In this document: piece after piece, positions 2,300-33,657 of the stretch
Numbering within the stretch: the stretch's first letter is position 1
Layout: each line of letters opens with the position of its first letter
Assembly (NCBI GenBank): GCA_900012615.1
Contig: LT009756.1
Coordinates: 1,638,567 to 1,702,566, forward strand
Direction: 5' to 3'
Origin: Agrobacterium genomosp. 13 str. CFBP 6927
Lineage (GTDB): Bacteria; Pseudomonadota; Alphaproteobacteria; Rhizobiales; Rhizobiaceae
Length of the DNA stretch: 64,000 bases
Program-made: the position numbers and the translations under genes
Notes under the pieces: model-generated
Told to the model about the DNA's origin: nothing
Database searches by the model: none
What the model saw: the letters and a program-made list of their open reading frames with translations, nothing else

Positions 2300-5200
2300 T
2301 CAGCGTGCCACCAGGCAGCTGCCGCCGGCCGAGCGGAACTTTTCGCACAGCGCCACGGCTTCGTTCTTGTCACCGGCCGGGATGCGGACGCGGTAGAACG
2401 TGCCCTTGCCGGCGATTTCGGCGGCCTTGATGTCGACGCCACGCCCACCGATGACCGAGCCGAACTTGGCCGACATGCTCTGGTAGGACTTCTGGGCCTC
2501 CGCCTGGCTCGGCAGGGACGCGATCTGGATGTAATAACCACCGGCCGAAGGGGTGTTTGTCGCGGCCGGCGTCGCGGCGGCTGTCTGCTGCTGCGCAGCC
2601 GGCGGCTGAGCCGGAGCGGTAGCGGCGGGACGGACATTACCCTGATTGGTGACGGTTGCCACGACATTGGAAGGCTGCGAGGACGGACGCGCTGCAGGAA
2701 GCGGCGCCGCCGTCTGCGAGGCCGGTGCGGCAGGCGTATTGGCCTGAGGCTGCGCAGCCTGCTCCGGCGCGACCGGAACACGCGAAGCGGCGATGACGGC
2801 AGGAGCGCCCTCACCCGGCTTGGCGGTCTGGGGCGCGGCAAGCTCCGCGACCTTGTCGGCCTTCGGCGGCTGGGCTGCCGGTGCATCGACTTCCTGGGCG
2901 ACCAGCGTGCCATCCGGCTTGACGATCATCGTGCGGACCTTGCGCGGCGAAACACCGGTTGCACCGGCACCTTCGTTGTGCGCGGCCTTTTCTTCCGGCG
3001 AAAGCAGGCGCGGGTCTTCAGTTTCACCAACCGGCGTACCGGTTGCGGTTTCCATATCCCCGTCGTTTTCACCTTCCAGCGGCAATTGTTCGGGGATCAG
3101 CGTGCGCTGAACCACATCGACCGGCTGCTCGCTGCTGGAAATCAGGGCGGGCTGCTTCGGATCGGCAGCACTGCCGCCGGCCACGCGGTCATACACCGCC
3201 TTGTCCTGGTTGGGCACGACGCGACCGCCCGGATTTTCCGGCACGACCTTCATCGGATCATTATCGGCGGAAATGATGACCGGCGCGCCATTGGAGCCGG
3301 TGCTGGACGAACCGCCTGATATCAGCGCGTAGACACCGCCGCCGACAAGCACCAGACCGATTGCGGCTGCAACCGGCATGATCCAGCGGCGACCGCCGCG
3401 CTCATCCTCATCGCGATAAGCGGCCTGATGATCGACATAGGTGTTCTCGGCATCCCGTGCGTTGCCGCGGGAAGCTGCAGCCTCCTGCATGGAGCGACGG
3501 AAGTCCTCTTCCAGCGCCCGTTCGAATTCGTCGGCTTCTTCCGGAGCCTGAACGGCGGCACGCGCCTGCGGGGCGGCTGCGCGGTTTTCCGCATGTTTGT
3601 GACGATCAAGACCGCCGGCGACCGCAGGCGCAAACAGCGTCGCAAGTTCGGTGTCGATGTCGAGATCTTCTTCGTGACGGCGGGCAACCGGCTTGGGTTC
3701 GAAAACCCCGACCGGCAATTCCGGCACATCCATCTCCACAATGGTTTCCGGATGTTCTTCCGTCTCGCCGATCTGCGAAGGATCGAAAGGCAGGCTCTCC
3801 AGTGTCTGCGGCGCAACCGGCTGCGGCGCAGCGGCGGCGGGACGCGGCTGAACGGGCGCGGCTGCGGCAATCGGCGCGGATACCGGCGCGACGCGCGGCT
3901 GGGGCGTGGGCTGCTCCCTTACCGGCTGGGGTGCAGCGGCAGCGACCACAGGCGCAACCGGCTGCTGGCGAACGGGTTGCGGCACGGGCGCAGGTGCGAC
4001 CTCGGCTTCGGCAATTTCGGAAAGGTCGAGATCAAGATCGAGATCGTCGAGCGCAAGCTCAAAATCATCGTCGTTGAAGCCCGCAAAATCGCTGAAATCC
4101 GGTTCCTGAACGGGAGCCGCAGATGTTGCAGGGGCAACCGGGGCTGCCCGTACCGGTATCGCGGCAACTGGCGGCTCCACCTTCGCAACCTGAGCGACAG
4201 GTGCGGCCTGAACGACGGGCGCAGACTGGACGACGGGTTCTTCACCACGGCCGGGAATGGAATATTTCGCAACGTCGTAGATCAGCTCGTCCATCGGCGA
4301 CAGATCGGCCGCAACGGACGTCTGAACAACAGGAGATGTGACCGGCTGCGCAGCAGGCGTGAAGGTTTCAGCAGGCAGAGGCGTAAAGGCAGGCGCAGTC
4401 TCTTCCGCCTGAATGACGACGGGCGCCGGTGCAGGTTCGATCTGCGGCGCGATCCGGGCTGCCGGCTGCTGTTCGGACCTCGGCTCGACCCGTCGCGGAT
4501 CGACCGCCGAAACATCGCGACGCGCCCCGAAATTGGCAAGCGGCAGGCGCAGGCTGGAAAATTCCAGCGAAGAACGGCCGCCATGCGAAGGCGGGCGCAC
4601 GGAAACGGGTGCAGGCGCTTCCTCGGCAACCGCGATCTCCACCTCATCGGCAAGATCGAAGGCCTGCGGCTCCGGCGTGTAACCATGCGAAGACGGAATG
4701 TTGCTGGAAACATCGGCCGGAAGTTCCGGCATGGCGTGCCATTCGGGCTGGGCGGGCTCGATGGCCTGCGGCTCTTCCCATGCCAGTTGTTGGGCGGCCT
4801 GCTGGTAAACCACCGGCTCGGCAGCACGCGGCTGGCGCGAATGCACGTCGAAAACTTCGGCGACCGCACCGGCATCGTCGCGGAAATCCGCGCGAATGTC
4901 CTGTGTCGACGTTTCCACGTAATTGTGAATATAGGCGTTGTCGACTTCCGGAAGCGGCTCTTCCGTGAACTCGGGCGCCACCTCATAGGCCGGCGTCGGC
5001 TCCGGCGCATACCGGGCCTCGACCTGCGGCTCGGCCACGGGGGAGAGTTCCGGCTCGCGGCGGGCGAAAACCTGCTCGACACGCTGCATGAAGTCGTTGG
5101 GGTGGATGCCCGCACGGACATCGTTTGCCGGATCAAGAACGACCGGATCGGCGTGCGGTGCGTCGTAAACCTCGAATTCCCTCAGAAGCTCATCTTCGAG

Positions 5201-22894: not shown

Positions 22895-23494
22895 TCAGGC
22901 CGAAAGCTTGGCGGCGAGCTTGGCGACATGTGCGCCCTGGAAGCGCGCACCTTCGAGTTCGATCTGCGAAGGCTGGCGCGATCCGTCACCATCGGTGATG
23001 GTGGAGGCGCCATAGGGCGAACCGCCCTTGATTTCATCGACACCCATCTGGCCCTGGAAAGCATAGGGCAGACCGGCAACGGCCATGCCGTGGTGCAGGA
23101 AGGTGGGAAGGAAACCGAGGATGGTGGATTCCTGGCCGCCATGCTGCGTGGCGGACGAGGTAAAGGCGGCGCCCACCTTGCCGACCAGCTTTCCACTGAA
23201 CCACAAGCCGCCCGTCTGATCCCAGAAATTGCGCATCTGCGAGGCGACCGTGCCGAAACGCGTGCCGGCGCCAACGATGATGGCATCATAATCGGCCAGC
23301 TCGTCGACCGTTGCGATCGGGGCTGCCTGATCCAGCTTGAAATGGGAGGACTTGGCGACTTCTTCCGGCACCAGTTCCGGAACGCGCTTGACGACGACGT
23401 CAGCGCCTGTCGATTTCGCGCCTTCCGCGACAGCATAGGCCATTGTCTCGATATGACCGTAAGAAGAATAATAGAGTACCAGAACCTTCGTCAT
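22895..23494 (-). CDS. wrbA: NAD(P)H:quinone oxidoreductase WrbA
   Basis: The 199-aa protein starts at the ATG at 23492-23494 ([14 protein letters not shown]). A longer frame to 23647 lacks family residues. It is a flavodoxin-like, FMN-dependent, tetrameric enzyme that reduces quinones by two electrons and protects against redox stress. Motifs are [14 protein letters not shown] for FMN phosphate binding, [20 protein letters not shown] near residue 75, and [12 protein letters not shown]. The gene is leftward and convergent with the tiny-gene run, with a terminator between. Confidence 0.95.
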
Positions 23495-27252: not shown

Positions 27253-30200
27253 ATGCGCATTGAACGCCGCTTCACGAAGCCCGGCCAATCGCCTTACGCG
27301 GAAATCGACTTCCGCAAGGCCGTCAGTGAGATCAAGAACCCTGATGGTTCCATCGTGTTCCGTCTGGCGGATATCGACGTTCCCGCGCAGTTCAGCCAGG
27401 TTGCCACCGACGTTCTGGCGCAGAAATATTTCCGCAAGGCCGGCGTGCCGAAGTTCCTGAAAAAGGTTGAGGAAAACGACGTTCCTTCCTTCCTGTGGCG
27501 CTCGGTTGCCGATGAGAAAGCCCTGAAGGACGTGCCCGAGGCCGAACGTTTTGGCTCCGAGACCGATGCGCGCCAGGTTTTCGACCGTCTGGCCGGCACC
27601 TGGGCCTATTGGGGTTGGAAGGGCAAATATTTCTCCACCGAAGAAGATGCGCTCGCCTTCCGCGACGAGCTTGCCTATATGCTCGCCACCCAGCGCGTTG
27701 CGCCGAACAGCCCGCAATGGTTCAACACCGGCCTGCACTGGGCCTATGGCATTGATGGTCCGGGCCAGGGCCATTTCTATGTCGACCCCTTCACCGGCAA
27801 GCTGACCAAGTCCAAATCCGCTTACGAACATCCGCAGCCGCATGCCTGCTTCATCCAGTCCGTCGAAGACGATCTGGTCAATGAAGGCGGCATCATGGAC
27901 CTGTGGGTGCGTGAAGCGCGCCTGTTCAAATACGGCTCCGGCACCGGCTCCAACTTCTCCTACCTGCGTGGCGAAGGCGAAAAGCTTTCGGGCGGCGGCA
28001 AGTCCTCCGGCCTGATGAGCTTCCTCAAGATCGGTGACCGTGCAGCGGGCGCCATCAAGTCCGGCGGCACCACCCGCCGTGCAGCGAAGATGGTCGTCGT
28101 TGATGCCGATCACCCTGATATCGAAGCCTATATCGACTGGAAGGTGAACGAGGAGCAGAAGGTTGCCGCGCTGGTTACCGGCTCCAAGATCGTCGCCAAG
28201 CACCTGAAGGCGATCATGAAGGCCTGCGTCAATTGCGAGGCTGACAATGGCGATTGCTTCGACCCGGCCAAGAACCCCGCCCTGAAGCGCGAAATCCGCG
28301 CTGCCAAGAAGGACATGGTGCCGGAAAACTACATCAAGCGCGTCATCCAGTTCGCCGAACAGGGTTACAAGGACATCCAGTTCAAGACTTATGACACGGA
28401 CTGGGATTCCGAAGCCTATCTCACGGTTTCCGGGCAGAACTCCAACAACTCCGTCTCGCTGAAGGACGACTTCCTGCGCGCTGTCGAAAATGACGGCGAC
28501 TGGAACCTCACCGCCCGCAAGGACGGCAAGGTCATGAAGACGCTGAAGGCCCGTGACCTCTGGGAAAAGATTTCCCACGCCGCCTGGGCATCGGCCGATC
28601 CGGGCCTGCACTTCAACACCACCATGAACGACTGGCACACCTCGCCGGCCGAAGGCCCGATCCGCGCCTCGAACCCGTGCTCGGAATATATGTTCCTTGA
28701 TGACACGGCCTGCAATCTCGCCTCGCTGAACCTTCTGCAGTTCAAGGATCAGGCAACGAAGCGCATCGACATCGCCGATTACGAACATGCCGTGCGCCTG
28801 TGGACCGTCGTGCTCGAAGTCTCCGTGATGATGGCGCAGTTCCCCTCGCGCCAGATTGCCGAACGCTCCTACGAATACCGCACGCTCGGCCTCGGTTACG
28901 CCAATATTGGCGGCCTGCTGATGTCCTCCGGCATTCCCTATGACAGCGACGAAGGCCGCGCCATTGCCGGTGCGTTGACCGCGATCATGACGGGCATTTC
29001 CTACGCCACCTCGGCTGAAATGGCCGGCGAGCTTGGCCCCTTCCCGAGCTTTGCGCCGAACCGCGACAACATGCTGCGCGTCATTCGCAACCACCGCCGC
29101 GCCGCTCATGGCCTGTCGGATGGTTATGAGGGCCTGTCGGTCAACCCGGTTGCGCTCATCCATGCCGATTGCACGGATCAGGACCTTATCACCCACGCCA
29201 CCGCCGCCTGGGACAAGGCGCTGGAGCTTGGCGAAAAGCACGGCTACCGCAACGCCCAGACCACCGTTATCGCGCCGACCGGCACGATCGGCCTCGTGAT
29301 GGATTGCGACACGACCGGCATCGAGCCCGACTTCGCGCTGGTGAAATTCAAGAAGCTCGCCGGCGGCGGTTACTTCAAGATCATCAACCGCGCGGTTCCA
29401 GATGCGCTGCGTTCGCTCGGTTATTCCGAAAGCCAGATCGCCGAGATCGAGGCCTATGCCGTCGGCCATGGCAATCTCAACCAGGCGCCGGCCATCAACC
29501 CTTCCACGCTGAAGGCCAAGGGCTTCACCGATGAGAAGATCGAAGCCGTCAATGGCGCGCTGAAGAGCGCCTTCGACATCAAGTTCGTCTTCAACCAGTG
29601 GACGCTCGGCGCCGACTTCCTCAAGGAAACGCTGAAAGTTTCCGACGAGCAGCTCTCCGACATGAGCTTCAACCTGCTCGAGCACCTCGGCTTCGGCAAG
29701 AAGGACATCGAAGCGGCCAATGTTCACGTCTGCGGCGCGATGACGCTGGAAGGCGCACCGTTCCTGAAAAACGAGCACCTGGCCGTCTTCGATTGCGCCA
29801 ACCCCTGCGGCAAGATCGGCAAGCGTTACCTCTCGGTCGAATCCCATATCCGCATGATGGCGGCGGCACAGCCCTTCATCTCGGGTGCGATCTCCAAGAC
29901 GATCAACATGCCGAACGATGCGACGGTTGAGGATTGCGGCGCAGCTTACATGCTCTCCTGGAAGCTGGCGCTGAAGGCCAACGCCCTTTACCGCGATGGC
30001 TCCAAGCTTTCCCAGCCGCTCAACGCCTCGCTGGTGGAAGACGAGGACGAAGAAGATTTCGTCGAAGAACTGGTCCAGCAGCCGCTCGCCCAGCAGGCCG
30101 TGACGATCACCGAAAAGATCGTCGAACGCGTCATCGAGCGTGTCTCGCGCGAGCGTGAAAAGCTGCCGAACCGCCGTCAGGGTTACACCCAGAAGGCAAC

Positions 30201-31071
30201 CGTCGGGGGTCACAAGGTCTATCTGCGCACCGGCGAATTCGGCGATGGCCGCATCGGCGAAATCTTCATCGACATGCACAAGGAAGGCGCCGCCTTCCGT
30301 GCGATGATGAACAACTTCGCCATCGCCATTTCGCTCGGCCTGCAATATGGCGTGCCGCTGGAAGAATATGTGGAGGCCTTCACCTTCACCAAGTTCGAAC
30401 CGGCCGGCATGGTGCAGGGCAACGACGCGATCAAGAACGCCACGTCGATCCTCGACTACGTGTTCCGCGAACTCGCCGTCTCCTATCTTGGCCGCCACGA
30501 TCTGGCCCATGTCGATACGTCCGACTTCTCCAACACCGCACTCGGCAAGGGTATCCAGGAAGGCAAGACCAACCTCGTTTCCACCGGCTGGACCCGCGGT
30601 TACAAGCCGACGCTGGTTTCCAGCAATGGCGGCGAACGGTCGTCTTCCGAGCCGAAGGGCTCGGCAACGGCAGCCCCTGCCCGCGGCTCCGCCAACGTCA
30701 CCTCCTTTGCCGGCTCCGCCGCCCGCAAGCTGGAACCGACGGTCGCCATCGCAACCTCCGAAATCGTCTCCTTCAAGCGGGACTATGAAGAGCGCGCCAA
30801 GGAACTGGCCGAAGAGATCGCCGAAGAAGTGATCGACGAGGTGGTTCAGGAATCCCAGCAGACCGCCACCGCCCTCTTCTCCGACAAGGCCGCCGCAGAC
30901 GCCGCATCGGCCAAGGCGGAAGCCAAGAAGGTGGAAAACGAACGCCGCATGCGCTCGATTGCACAGGGCTATACGGGCAACATGTGCTCGGAATGCCAGA
31001 ACTTCACGATGGTGCGGAACGGCACCTGCGAGAAGTGCGATACTTGTGGTGCGACGAGCGGTTGCTCTTGA
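27253..31071 (+). CDS. nrdJ: Vitamin B12-dependent (class II) ribonucleotide reductase
   Basis: The 1272-aa adenosylcobalamin-dependent reductase makes dNTPs with or without oxygen. The N-terminal part includes [12 protein letters not shown] and [16 protein letters not shown] for substrate binding. The central barrel has [17 protein letters not shown] with the catalytic Cys and Glu region, then [13 protein letters not shown] [17 protein letters not shown] long C-terminal extension ends in a Cys-rich redox or zinc motif (CSECQNFTM, then [13 protein letters not shown]). Length is typical of the alphaproteobacterial form. The start follows aggaaacc. NrdR-like palindromes lie upstream and a strong terminator lies directly downstream. 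Confidence 0.97.
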
Positions 31072-31105
31072 TGCTTACTGATAAACAAATTTAGAAAATT
31101 CCCAG

Positions 31106-31136
31106 CGCCGAGTTCGAACACGAACTCGGCGTTTTT
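31106..31136 (+). terminator. Rho-independent terminator of nrdJ
   Basis: The 11-base stem cgccgagttcg/cgaactcggcg, with a short loop, is followed by five T. It lies 35 bases after the nrdJ stop codon and marks the left boundary of the AT-rich insert. Confidence 0.92.
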
Positions 31137-31151
31137 CATGTGAGACCAAAG

Positions 31152-32146
31152 ATGTTCACTATCTATCCCGACTACTCAAAAAAAGAGTTTCAAAGGCAGG
31201 TAACGCCGTACGAGAAGGCATAGAAAAACAAGAGGATATTGACGTAATTGAAAACTGGCGCGCTGCACATAACTATGTCCTAAATACATTTCAAGCGACA
31301 CTCCGACGTCACGCGCGCGGAAAAGAAATAACAGTAGCGCAGCGGCTGAAACGACGTCTCACAATCTACGATAAGCTGAAACGGCAGCCAGACATGCAAC
31401 TCGCTAGAATGCATGATATCGCTGGATGTAGGTTAATATTTGAGGATATTTTTTCGCTGAACGAGACACGGCGGCAAATAATTGGATCAAAATTTAAACA
31501 TAAACTACGAAACTCTCTTGGAGATTACGACTACATAGCTACACCTAAAAACACGGGATATCGGGGTGTTCACGACGTATATGAATATGTCTCCTATTCT
31601 GGAAGCGCAGAAAAATGGAACGGATTGCAAATAGAATTGCAATACAGAACTAAAACGCAGCATGCTTGGGCTACTGCCGTCGAAATTGTTGGCTCACTCA
31701 CAGGTAACGAGTCAAAGTTTGATCGGGGAGACAAAGATCATCAACAATTCTTTCGCCTTAGTAGCGAGTTGCTAGCGAGACGTCATGAAGACAAAAAATC
31801 CTGCCTCCCTGATTTAACAGACCGAGAAATCGTCAGTAAAATCATAGAGATAGAGAGAAAAATTGGCGTCATAAGGCTACTAGAAGGAATTCACGTTTCT
31901 GCCGAACAACTAAAAGACGCGAGAAATCTTATCCTACGCATGGGTCCCAAGGGAGTTCTGACTGTCTATGGTTTTACAAAGACCAAGACGGCTCTCGAAA
32001 GATATTTTGAGCTTGAAGAGGAGGAGGGTGAAGACGACATCGTATTTGTCAGAGGGGACACCAATGACGGAATTCGTAGTGCTTTCCGAAATTATTTCTC
32101 TGATGCTAGAGATTTCACATCATTAATTCATACGGCCTTGCGTTAA
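31152..32146 (+). CDS. RelA/SpoT-domain (p)ppGpp-synthetase-like protein, 5' end frameshifted
   Basis: An uninterrupted frame from ATG 31394 (250 aa) contains the synthetase motifs DIAGCRLIF, DYDYIATPKNTGYRGVH and QIELQYRTKTQHAWA, so the fold looks intact. Conserved family sequence continues upstream in the same frame with no ATG (ENWRAAHNYVLNTFQATL, AQRLKRRLTIYDKLKRQPDM). It joins MFTIYPDYSKK, which starts at ATG 31152 in another frame. The shift falls exactly at a run of seven A (31178-31184). Reading minus one there gives YSKKRVSKAGNAVREG and a 331-aa protein of normal family length. It may be a pseudogene, a sequence error, or rescued by slippage at A-AAA-AAA-G. The segment is AT-rich, unlike its neighbours, suggesting transfer. 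Relatives include phage-defence and toxic alarmone synthetases as well as housekeeping-like ones. Confidence 0.75.
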
Positions 32147-32295
32147 CAACACAACGGTAATCGGCGCCTTGCGAAATCATTGGGAATAGGGCCGCAGCGA
32201 ACCGGACCAGCCTGCCCGCGCCTATCTGAAGGCCATCGCTGTCGATCCCGAGGGAACAGCGGCCGCGCTCCGTAAAGGCGCGGCCTGACCTTCCC
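32147..32295. other. Right border of the AT-rich insert with a coding remnant
   Basis: The base composition returns to GC-rich at about 32160. A plus-strand fragment near 32195-32286 reads PARAYLKAIAVDPEGTAAAL and then RKGAA before TGA. It has the look of the 3' end of a gene whose 5' part is absent. Its family is not recognised. Confidence 0.4.
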
Positions 32296-33621
32296 TCACC
32301 CCATAAAATCCACCAGCAGCTTCACATTCAGCGCCGCAATCACCACCGCTATCAGCCACGCAAAAGCCGAGAGCCAGAGCGGCGCTTTCAGTGCGCCCAT
32401 CTTGGCCTTGTCGGAGGTGAACATGACGAGCGGGAAGACGGCGAAGGAGAGTTGCAGGCTGAGCACCACCTGCGTCAGAATCAGCAGCTCGGCCGTGCCA
32501 CTGTCGCCATAGAAGATGGTGACGCCGGCGGCCGGGACGATGGCGATAGCGCGGGTGATGAGGCGGCGCAGCCAGGGGGCGAGCTGCATCTTCAGGAAAC
32601 CCTCCATCACGATCTGGCCCGCAAGCGTCGCCGTGACGGTGGAGTTGATGCCGCAGCACAGGAGCGCCACGCCGAACAGCGTCGGCGCAATGGCAAGGCC
32701 GAGCAGCGGCGCGAGCAGATTATGCGCCTCCCCCAGTTCCGAGACATTCGTCTGCCCGGTTTTATTGAAAGTCGCCGCCGCCAGAATGAGGATCGAGGCG
32801 TTGATGAGCAGCGCGAACATCAGGGCGATGGTGGAATCGAGCGTCGCGAATTTGAGCGCCTCACGCTTCTCGGGCAGCGTCTCACCGATGGCACGGGTCT
32901 GTATGATGCCCGAATGCAGGTAGAGATTATGCGGCATCACCGTCGCCCCCAGAATGCCGAGCGCCAGATAAAGCATGTCCGGATTGGTGACGATATCAGT
33001 CGTCGGCGCGAACCCAAGGATCACCTGCCCCCAGTCTGGATCGGCAAGCGCCACCTGAATGGCGAAACACACGGCGATGACGCCAAGCAGCGTGATGACC
33101 AGCGCCTCCACCCAGCGGAAGCCGAGCTTTTGCAGATAAAGGATCAGGAACACATCAAGCGCGGTGATGAGGACGCCAAGCTCAAGCGGAATGCCGAAGA
33201 TCAGGTTGAGGCCGATGGCCGTGCCGATGACCTCGGCGATGTCAGTCGCAATGATGGCGATTTCGGCGAGCAGCCACAGCACCATCGCCACCGGTTTCGG
33301 ATAGGCATCGCGGCAGGCCTGGGCGAGATCGCGCCCGGAAGCAATCGCCAGACGCGCGCAGAGCGATTGCAGGACAATGGCCATGATGTTCGACACCAGC
33401 GCGACTGTCAGCAGCGTGTAGCCGAATCTGGAACCACCGGCGAGCGAGGTCGCCCAGTTTCCGGGATCCATATAACCAACCGCGACGAGATATCCGGGTC
33501 CGAAAAAGGCCATGGCCCGGCGAAACGTGCCGGCATTCGGCTTGACCCTGATCGTGCTGTGAACGTCGGAGAGCGAAAGGTCGTCGCCATTCCGCCGCCA
33601 TCCAAAGACAGGCTTGTCCAT
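32296..33621 (-). CDS. mntH: Nramp-type manganese transporter MntH
   Basis: The protein has 441 aa from the ATG at 33619-33621 ([12 protein letters not shown]). A TTG five codons upstream is less likely. It is a proton-coupled Mn(II) importer of the inner membrane, with 11 predicted spans. Family motifs are [20 protein letters not shown] in helix 1 and [15 protein letters not shown] in helix 6, which carry the metal ligands Asp, Asn and Met. A TGCAAA-type inverted repeat lies about 37 bases upstream of the start and could be the Mur/Fur operator expected for mntH in rhizobia. The gene is leftward with a short gap to the AT-rich insert. Confidence 0.95.
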
Positions 33622-33657
33622 CTTGCGAACTTTCAAATGGAATTTTATTAATGCAAT

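Follow-up and report, generated by a model that had tools for sequence, protein, structure and literature searches.

A gene with a RelA/SpoT domain in Agrobacterium genomosp. 13 str. CFBP 6927 is spread over two reading frames that meet at a run of seven A (A7). This raises the question of what the joined frames would encode, and whether the interruption is a form of gene control, a recent accident or a fault of the assembly. The locus lies on a 2.93 Mb contig of a two-contig, 5.16 Mb genome, and was analysed within a window of 64,000 nucleotides; "window" here means that whole stretch of DNA, to which the coordinates below refer.

Two reading frames at a run of seven A

The features of the locus are as follows.

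27253..31071, + strand: nrdJ, a B12-dependent (class II) ribonucleotide reductase, which bounds the variable site on the left (Pfam Ribonuc_red_lgC 3.6e-123, Ribonuc_red_2_N 2.4e-43; 3′ end present in 39 of 39 genus genomes)
31104..31133, + strand: terminator-like hairpin in the gap from nrdJ to the CapRel-like gene; its stem has 13 bp and a T run comes next
31152..31223, + strand: leader frame (23 aa), carrying the family N-terminus MFTIYPDYSKK and then running off-frame to a stop
31178..31184, + strand: seven-A run, junction of the two frames
31187..32146, + strand: body of the CapRel-like (PDC-S33) protein, 319 open codons plus stop; a toxSYNTH-like domain, then a predicted C-terminal self-blocking domain with an FRNY motif
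31394..32146, + strand: 250-aa ORF, the sole listed body-frame ORF of at least 50 aa with a usual start
32160..32288, + strand: 3′ end of a brnA-like antitoxin remnant, residues 70-110 of 110 plus stop (86% identity, E 3.8e-18)
32296..33636, − strand: mntH, manganese transporter of the Nramp family, which bounds the variable site on the right (Pfam Nramp 5e-132)

The frame is split in two at A7. The preliminary description of this DNA had located the split between an ATG at 31152 and a frame running to 32146, with the junction at 31178-31184, and these positions are correct. It had also noted family sequence 5′ of the first ATG with no start codon of its own; indeed the body frame is open from 5′ of the A run to its stop at 32144-32146, and contains no ATG, GTG or TTG upstream of 31394. 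The N-terminus that it placed in a separate frame matches the start of an intact relative. This protein, from Agrobacterium sp. P15N1-A, is the best relative among the matches listed (120 of 4595); it has 331 aa, is 90% identical to the 319-residue piece over the whole length of the piece, and begins MFTIYPDYSKKRVSKAG. Its first eleven residues correspond to the small frame and the remainder to the large frame. The split is more than a chance arrangement of frames, because the 319-residue piece has Pfam, PADLOC and full-length relative matches. At the junction, the leader frame reads A_AAA_AAA and then G (31178-31185), which is a slippery heptamer whose phase suits −1 slippage.

One earlier claim, that the 250-aa ORF keeps all synthetase motifs, does not survive inspection. 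The first codon of this ORF corresponds to residue 70 of the 319-residue piece. R53, the aligned counterpart of the ATP-coordinating R79 of CapRel-SJ46, is therefore missing from it, as are the initial 18 residues of the Pfam match, which starts at residue 52.

A CapRel-type fused toxin-antitoxin

The encoded protein is a CapRel-type fused toxin-antitoxin, a new member of a known defence family. The 319-residue piece matches the Pfam RelA_SpoT domain (PF04607) at 2.1e-13 and a single PADLOC family, PDC-S33, at 8.5e-101 over profile positions 13-341 of 349. PDC-S33 is a single-gene candidate defence family for which a PADLOC description is absent, and its label was not found in a full-text literature search. 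The PDC-S33 model also matches CapRel-SJ46 itself (7e-87), and the candidate family and CapRel therefore form one group at that level. CapRel-SJ46, from Salmonella phage SJ46, is likewise a two-domain single protein with the same fold and the same PADLOC family (7ztb, 9erv; PMC9712102). Its structures are the PDB sequences closest to the intact relative P0003 (7ztb 2.6e-34, 9erv 2.5e-34; P0003 residues 7-260), and an hmmsearch of the PDB with a 51-sequence profile recovers both at 1e-50 over positions 6-332 of 336. The predicted model of the 319-residue piece (mean pLDDT 83.5, pTM 0.78, residues 291-299 under 50) returns 9erv and 7ztb at Foldseek ranks 1-3, with E values of 1e-20 and 7.7e-20, TM scores of 0.76-0.78 by query length and an rmsd of 4.8-5.6. 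Identity between CapRel-SJ46 and P0003 is 31% over 355 columns. Unlike CapRel-SJ46, the Agrobacterium copy is chromosomal and frame-broken.

Other proteins with a synthetase domain are more distant. The small alarmone synthetases (YjbM, YwaC, RelP; 5dec, 5f2v, 6fgk, 6ewz) share this domain at profile E values of 8.7e-12 to 1.6e-9, but the match covers about the synthetase domain only, and they are without the C-terminal self-blocking domain. The long stringent factors RelA, Rel and SpoT have the PF04607 domain in common with the 319-residue piece, matching residues 21-162 or less of it, and the NCBIfam models for these factors score far below cut-off. NCBIfam alarmone synthetase models likewise give the piece scores far under their cut-offs.

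The passages of the CapRel-SJ46 study that name residues (PMC9712102) assign R79 and R116 to the adenine site and Y155 to the G-loop, give Y352/Y355 as the YXXY motif that blocks the active site, and list A77, V338, L339, A341 and A351 as interface positions. In a global alignment, the 319-residue piece has the same residue as CapRel-SJ46 at seven of the ten (A77, R79, R116, Y155, V338, A351, Y355); the toxSYNTH active-site equivalents are R53 (R79), R82 (R116) and Y125 (Y155). The three changes are Y352 to F, L339 to F and A341 to R, the alignment of L339 and A341 being less sure because the C-terminal part is of low identity. CapRel-SJ46 and the Agrobacterium copy share adenine-site and G-loop residues. 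At the aligned place of the C-terminal YXXY motif, the former reads YPNY and the latter FRNY, a candidate motif of the same type, and the C-terminal part of the latter is also shorter. In FRNY the second Y is kept and the first is F, and the predicted model is least certain just before it, at residues 291-299. The N and the second Y are invariant in 51 of 51 aligned sequences. By alignment, the protein has both its toxin part and its putative blocking part, with the first tyrosine of the motif changed.

By analogy with the CapRel papers, the N-terminal toxSYNTH domain of an intact protein would pyrophosphorylate tRNA ends and stop translation, the C-terminal domain would block toxSYNTH through the [FY]xNY motif, and a phage protein would release the block. 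We infer tRNA modification and release by a phage protein from the relevant passages on CapRel-SJ46 and CapRel-Ebc (PMC9712102, PMC13423816). A CapRel-like protein is expected to act on tRNA rather than chiefly to make alarmone. The preliminary description had called the product an alarmone synthetase; the RelA/SpoT domain is there, whereas a mainly alarmone-making role is not what would be expected of a CapRel-type protein, for which the CapRel-SJ46 precedent suggests a tRNA substrate.

Origin of the frame break

There are several possible explanations for the split, and the list offered in the preliminary description (a one-base deletion, a homopolymer sequencing error, or programmed frameshifting or transcriptional slippage) was the right one. 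In fifteen full-length relatives (P0003-P0017, 68-90% identity), one unbroken protein continues from the family N-terminus, although the protein database consists of predicted ORFs and is biased to intact relatives. Intact copies of the CapRel-like family, and close ones with an uninterrupted frame such as the preliminary description had named as evidence against its proposal, are therefore present. Two further proteins are incomplete: P0018 (254 aa) starts internally and P0103 (226 aa) ends early. At the DNA level, the equivalent point is passed in one frame in all 24 loci inspected (L001, L002, L039, L084-L100, L103, L104, L123 and L124, with L004-L008, L040-L042 and L101 left out), a set that is without the nearest relatives P0003-P0011 and contains near-duplicates as judged by their ends (L085 and L096; L091 and L100). 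Comparison of the A run across relatives does not reveal a shared tract: none of the 21 correctly oriented loci that were scored for runs has A7 at the equivalent point, and L002 has six A there with its frame uninterrupted. Among P0003-P0017 and the 24 DNA loci compared, the break is specific to the source-genome copy. As a separate observation, L093, on a viral contig, is also frame-broken at another place, in an A-rich stretch at about 3640-3740 of that locus, close to where the synthetase part gives way to the C-terminal part, so breaks in CapRel-like genes may be frequent, or may not always put the gene out of action.

The accuracy of the assembly was gauged against a genome of the same species, G026. 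When 204 kb of the assembly were compared with 200 kb of G026, a match of at least 75% identity was obtained for 130 of 167 reference ORFs, 127 of which were complete in a single frame. Of the remaining three, one sits at the end of the stretch and the other two are broken in their first 30-40 residues; from the alignments, these two are probably over-extended ORFs with non-coding starts. The reverse comparison matched 131 of 173 ORFs, 127 in full and 4 otherwise. Homopolymer runs of at least six bases with unique 14-base anchors had the same length as in G026 in 37 of 41 cases for all bases, 33 of 34 for A/T and 2 of 2 for A7, counts that leave out 67 further runs without a unique anchor. The full-length ORFs and matching runs argue that the assembly is not error-ridden, though a single wrong call is possible.

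The age of the break can be approached through the conservation of the body frame. At 110 sites conserved in at least 80% of sequences, the 319-residue piece has no departures. Its 33 differences from P0003 divide into 11 on its own branch (none at the 110 sites), 15 on that of P0003 (one at such a site) and 7 that are ambiguous; had all 11 own-branch changes post-dated inactivation, this pattern would have P = 0.0095. Judged by these substitutions, the gene is one that was under constraint for most of its branch. With all 110 conserved sites intact, the break is recent, or an error, or the gene is still used, and decay does not separate these three.

We consider it probable that the locus records a recent inactivation of a horizontally acquired CapRel-family (PDC-S33) gene at the variable nrdJ-mntH defence site; this and the likelihoods of the other readings are judgements, not computed values. 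In the source genome, the one-base offset at the A run would break the frame at codon 11. Ribosomes beginning at the family start would then make a 23-aa peptide, and initiation at 31394 would give a product without part of the ATP site, so that the CapRel-like system is most likely off in this genome. A recent date for the lesion is suggested by the presence of every conserved residue downstream of it. The alternative that the frame offset reflects a homopolymer sequencing or assembly error, with the gene intact and the strain in possession of a working CapRel-like system, is unlikely but deserves to be taken seriously. Homopolymers are where sequencing errors fall, and the 319 codons show no decay, both of which speak for an error; the agreement of ORFs and anchored runs with the same-species genome speaks against it. 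In the part of a survey of prokaryotic frame breaks that concerns unclustered (singleton) cases, such breaks are said to be likely indel mutations or sequencing errors (PMC3711429), which lends support to an error.

Slippage at A7 is the other family of explanations. That −1 frameshifting is conserved and built into the CapRel-like family is barely credible: the heptamer is in the right phase, but the relatives at 68-90% identity are encoded as single proteins and the DNA loci read through in one frame, and as a family feature programmed frameshifting is ruled out by these uninterrupted frames for the relatives examined. The earlier proposal of programmed recoding is not supported: neither A7 nor the split is common to the relatives examined, and no downstream structure rises above shuffled sequence; the 90 nt after A7 fold no better than shuffles in a pseudoknot-free calculation (z 0.52; 139 of 200 at least as good). 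Also improbable, though less so, is a leaky or phase-variable supply of a little full-length protein, whether through slippage of the polymerase or the ribosome at A7 or through slipped-strand mutation between generations; such a supply may suffice if a self-blocked toxin acts at low dose. The sections of PMC4066793 on heptamer tests place V_VV.A_AA.R heptamers, A_AAA_AAA included, in an efficient class in E. coli, attribute 72% of the heptamers of frameshifting IS elements to A_AAA_AAG and A_AAA_AAA, and report AAAAAAA to be depleted in E. coli genes whatever the frame, with slippage as a possible cause. Most of the branch also seems to have been under purifying selection. Against leaky expression stand the lack of downstream structure, the absence by eye of a Shine-Dalgarno-like stretch before A7, the rate that the same sections give for E. 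coli when stimulators are absent, about 0.3% with the three best heptamers (PMC4066793), and the confinement of A7 to the source genome among the loci scored. There is a small chance that A7 serves as a dose limiter or bet-hedging switch, with rare slippage or slipped-strand reversion giving a trickle of full-length protein, and it is similarly doubtful that a costly self-blocked tRNA toxin is in this way kept mostly off yet remains selectable under phage attack. If A7 were a working switch, it would be a way to ration a toxic immune protein. In the literature on CapRel and frameshifting that was searched, the frameshift is in a phage gene, and a search on phase variation in defence, with limited wordings, gave no title on CapRel tract variation among the matches listed. 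Finally, the 250-aa product as a deliberate separate protein, a free antitoxin-like half, has hardly any likelihood. It would keep the FRNY motif, and P0018, among the database matches listed, begins near the same residue, but most of the synthetase domain would still be inside, which is not a clean domain cut, and P0018, encoded on a contig of 1673 bases, might itself be a broken copy.

Recent inactivation remains our preferred reading, and the frame break has the look of a commonplace recent lesion rather than of a new mode of gene control. As a probably routine loss, it fits the idea that costly abortive defence genes turn over fast.

A variable site between nrdJ and mntH

Horizontal acquisition of the CapRel-family gene is suggested by its low GC content (0.43 versus 0.59 for the window) and by its distribution. 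No close copy was found in the 38 other genus genomes, one of them of the same species, and weak matches (31-38% identity) occur in 5 of the 38. Plasmid records gave no match to the gene in a DNA-level search; at the protein level, 98 of 72,556 records matched, the best place being under 60% identity in all 98. Three of 50,697 phage records matched at the protein level, two of them SJ46. The genome collection contributed two loci, both from Sphingomonadales (45% and 43% identity), and viral contigs contributed 18, the best at 54%. Matches were present in 3 of 393 other genomes of the family sample (E <= 1e-30), and in 2 of 396 others of the order sample and 2 of 384 others of the class sample (E <= 1e-80). 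DNA from a close relative was not among the matches in any of these collections.

The gene sits between two chromosomal borders, nrdJ and mntH, and the site occupies 31072-32295 of the window. The two best named relatives of MntH are from Agrobacterium (94% and 90%), followed by one from Rhizobium (88%). Where the two borders were located near each other on one contig, the interval measures from about 0.6 to about 51 kb; in species further removed, the stretch examined after nrdJ showed no mntH. The interval, or several kb after nrdJ, was taken from 37 of the 38 other genomes, G031 being represented only as locus L036. A full brnT-brnA pair is at the site in 9 of the 38, and a whole or partial brnA alone in 8; BrnT was named by Pfam PF04365 (4.5e-27), and BrnA by its position behind brnT together with a helix-turn-helix match. 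In the source genome, the rest of brnTA was not found in the window, the only other match being at 23161-23229 with E 0.47. A brnTA module may have been replaced by the CapRel-like import or by an earlier event, leaving the brnA remnant. The same-species genome G026 has no brnA match at the site and carries a different 377-aa gene instead, so the displaced brnTA is deduced from other species.

The cargo of the site was surveyed by a PADLOC scan of 30 selected proteins, drawn from 21 of the 38 other genomes, in which the greedy ORF choice took some spurious antisense frames and the family scan covered chosen ORFs only. Matches at 1e-10 or better were obtained in 10 of the 21: CBASS-type cyclases (G012, G019), the Pycsar-type PycC (G021, G029, G032), an AbiU-like protein (G016), PDC-M53 (G020), PDC-M34 (G035), a PD-T7-4-like protein (G033) and a DEDDh exonuclease (G036), the weakest defence call. 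In the other 11, matches were weaker (capP at 4.7e-10 in G017, a caspase at 3.1e-4 in G030, and matches in G001 and G003) or absent among the chosen ORFs (G002, G005, G006, G007, G022, G025, G026). The site after nrdJ has the appearance of a spot where small modules for defence or of the toxin-antitoxin kind are exchanged. The gene places a CapRel-type protein in Agrobacterium where such modules differ between species, and the nrdJ-mntH interval is a useful place to seek new defence genes. A literature search on Agrobacterium defence hotspots, with limited wordings, gave no title on a hotspot of this genus among the matches listed.

Signals around the gene are less distinctive. The hairpin scan found 2 such sites in the region versus a mean of 1.8 in shuffles, which is weak as a scan result. 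The exact 31-base hairpin sequence is present in 1 of 39 genus genomes, the source genome only; it was considered as a genus-wide nrdJ terminator and rejected on this ground, and it may have come with the import. A promoter scan gave 2 sites against a shuffle mean of 1.6, none of them upstream of the gene on its strand.

Several other genes at the site may merit attention. The 377-aa gene of G026 (L055 566-1699, + strand) has no Pfam or PADLOC match at E 0.01 and is a candidate defence gene. Similar-looking genes of 222-250 aa, with FGFSAFLR in their N-terminal part, occur at the site in G001, G005, G010 and G038 (L043 1076-1750, L045 1087-1755, L070 1050-1724, L082 1109-1861, counted with nrdJ first, L043 and L082 being reversed); PADLOC gives a weak PDC-M24B match for that of G001 (0.0035; no Pfam match) and none for that of G005. 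In L073, nrdJ is followed by four genes, for a 517-aa PycC-matching protein, an E2-like protein, a 2TM effector and a 232-aa PycC-like cyclase. The E2-like gene here stands between two cyclase-like ones, perhaps an unusual Pycsar/CBASS mix. L079, for which the PADLOC scan covered the first ORF only, has the same ORF order.
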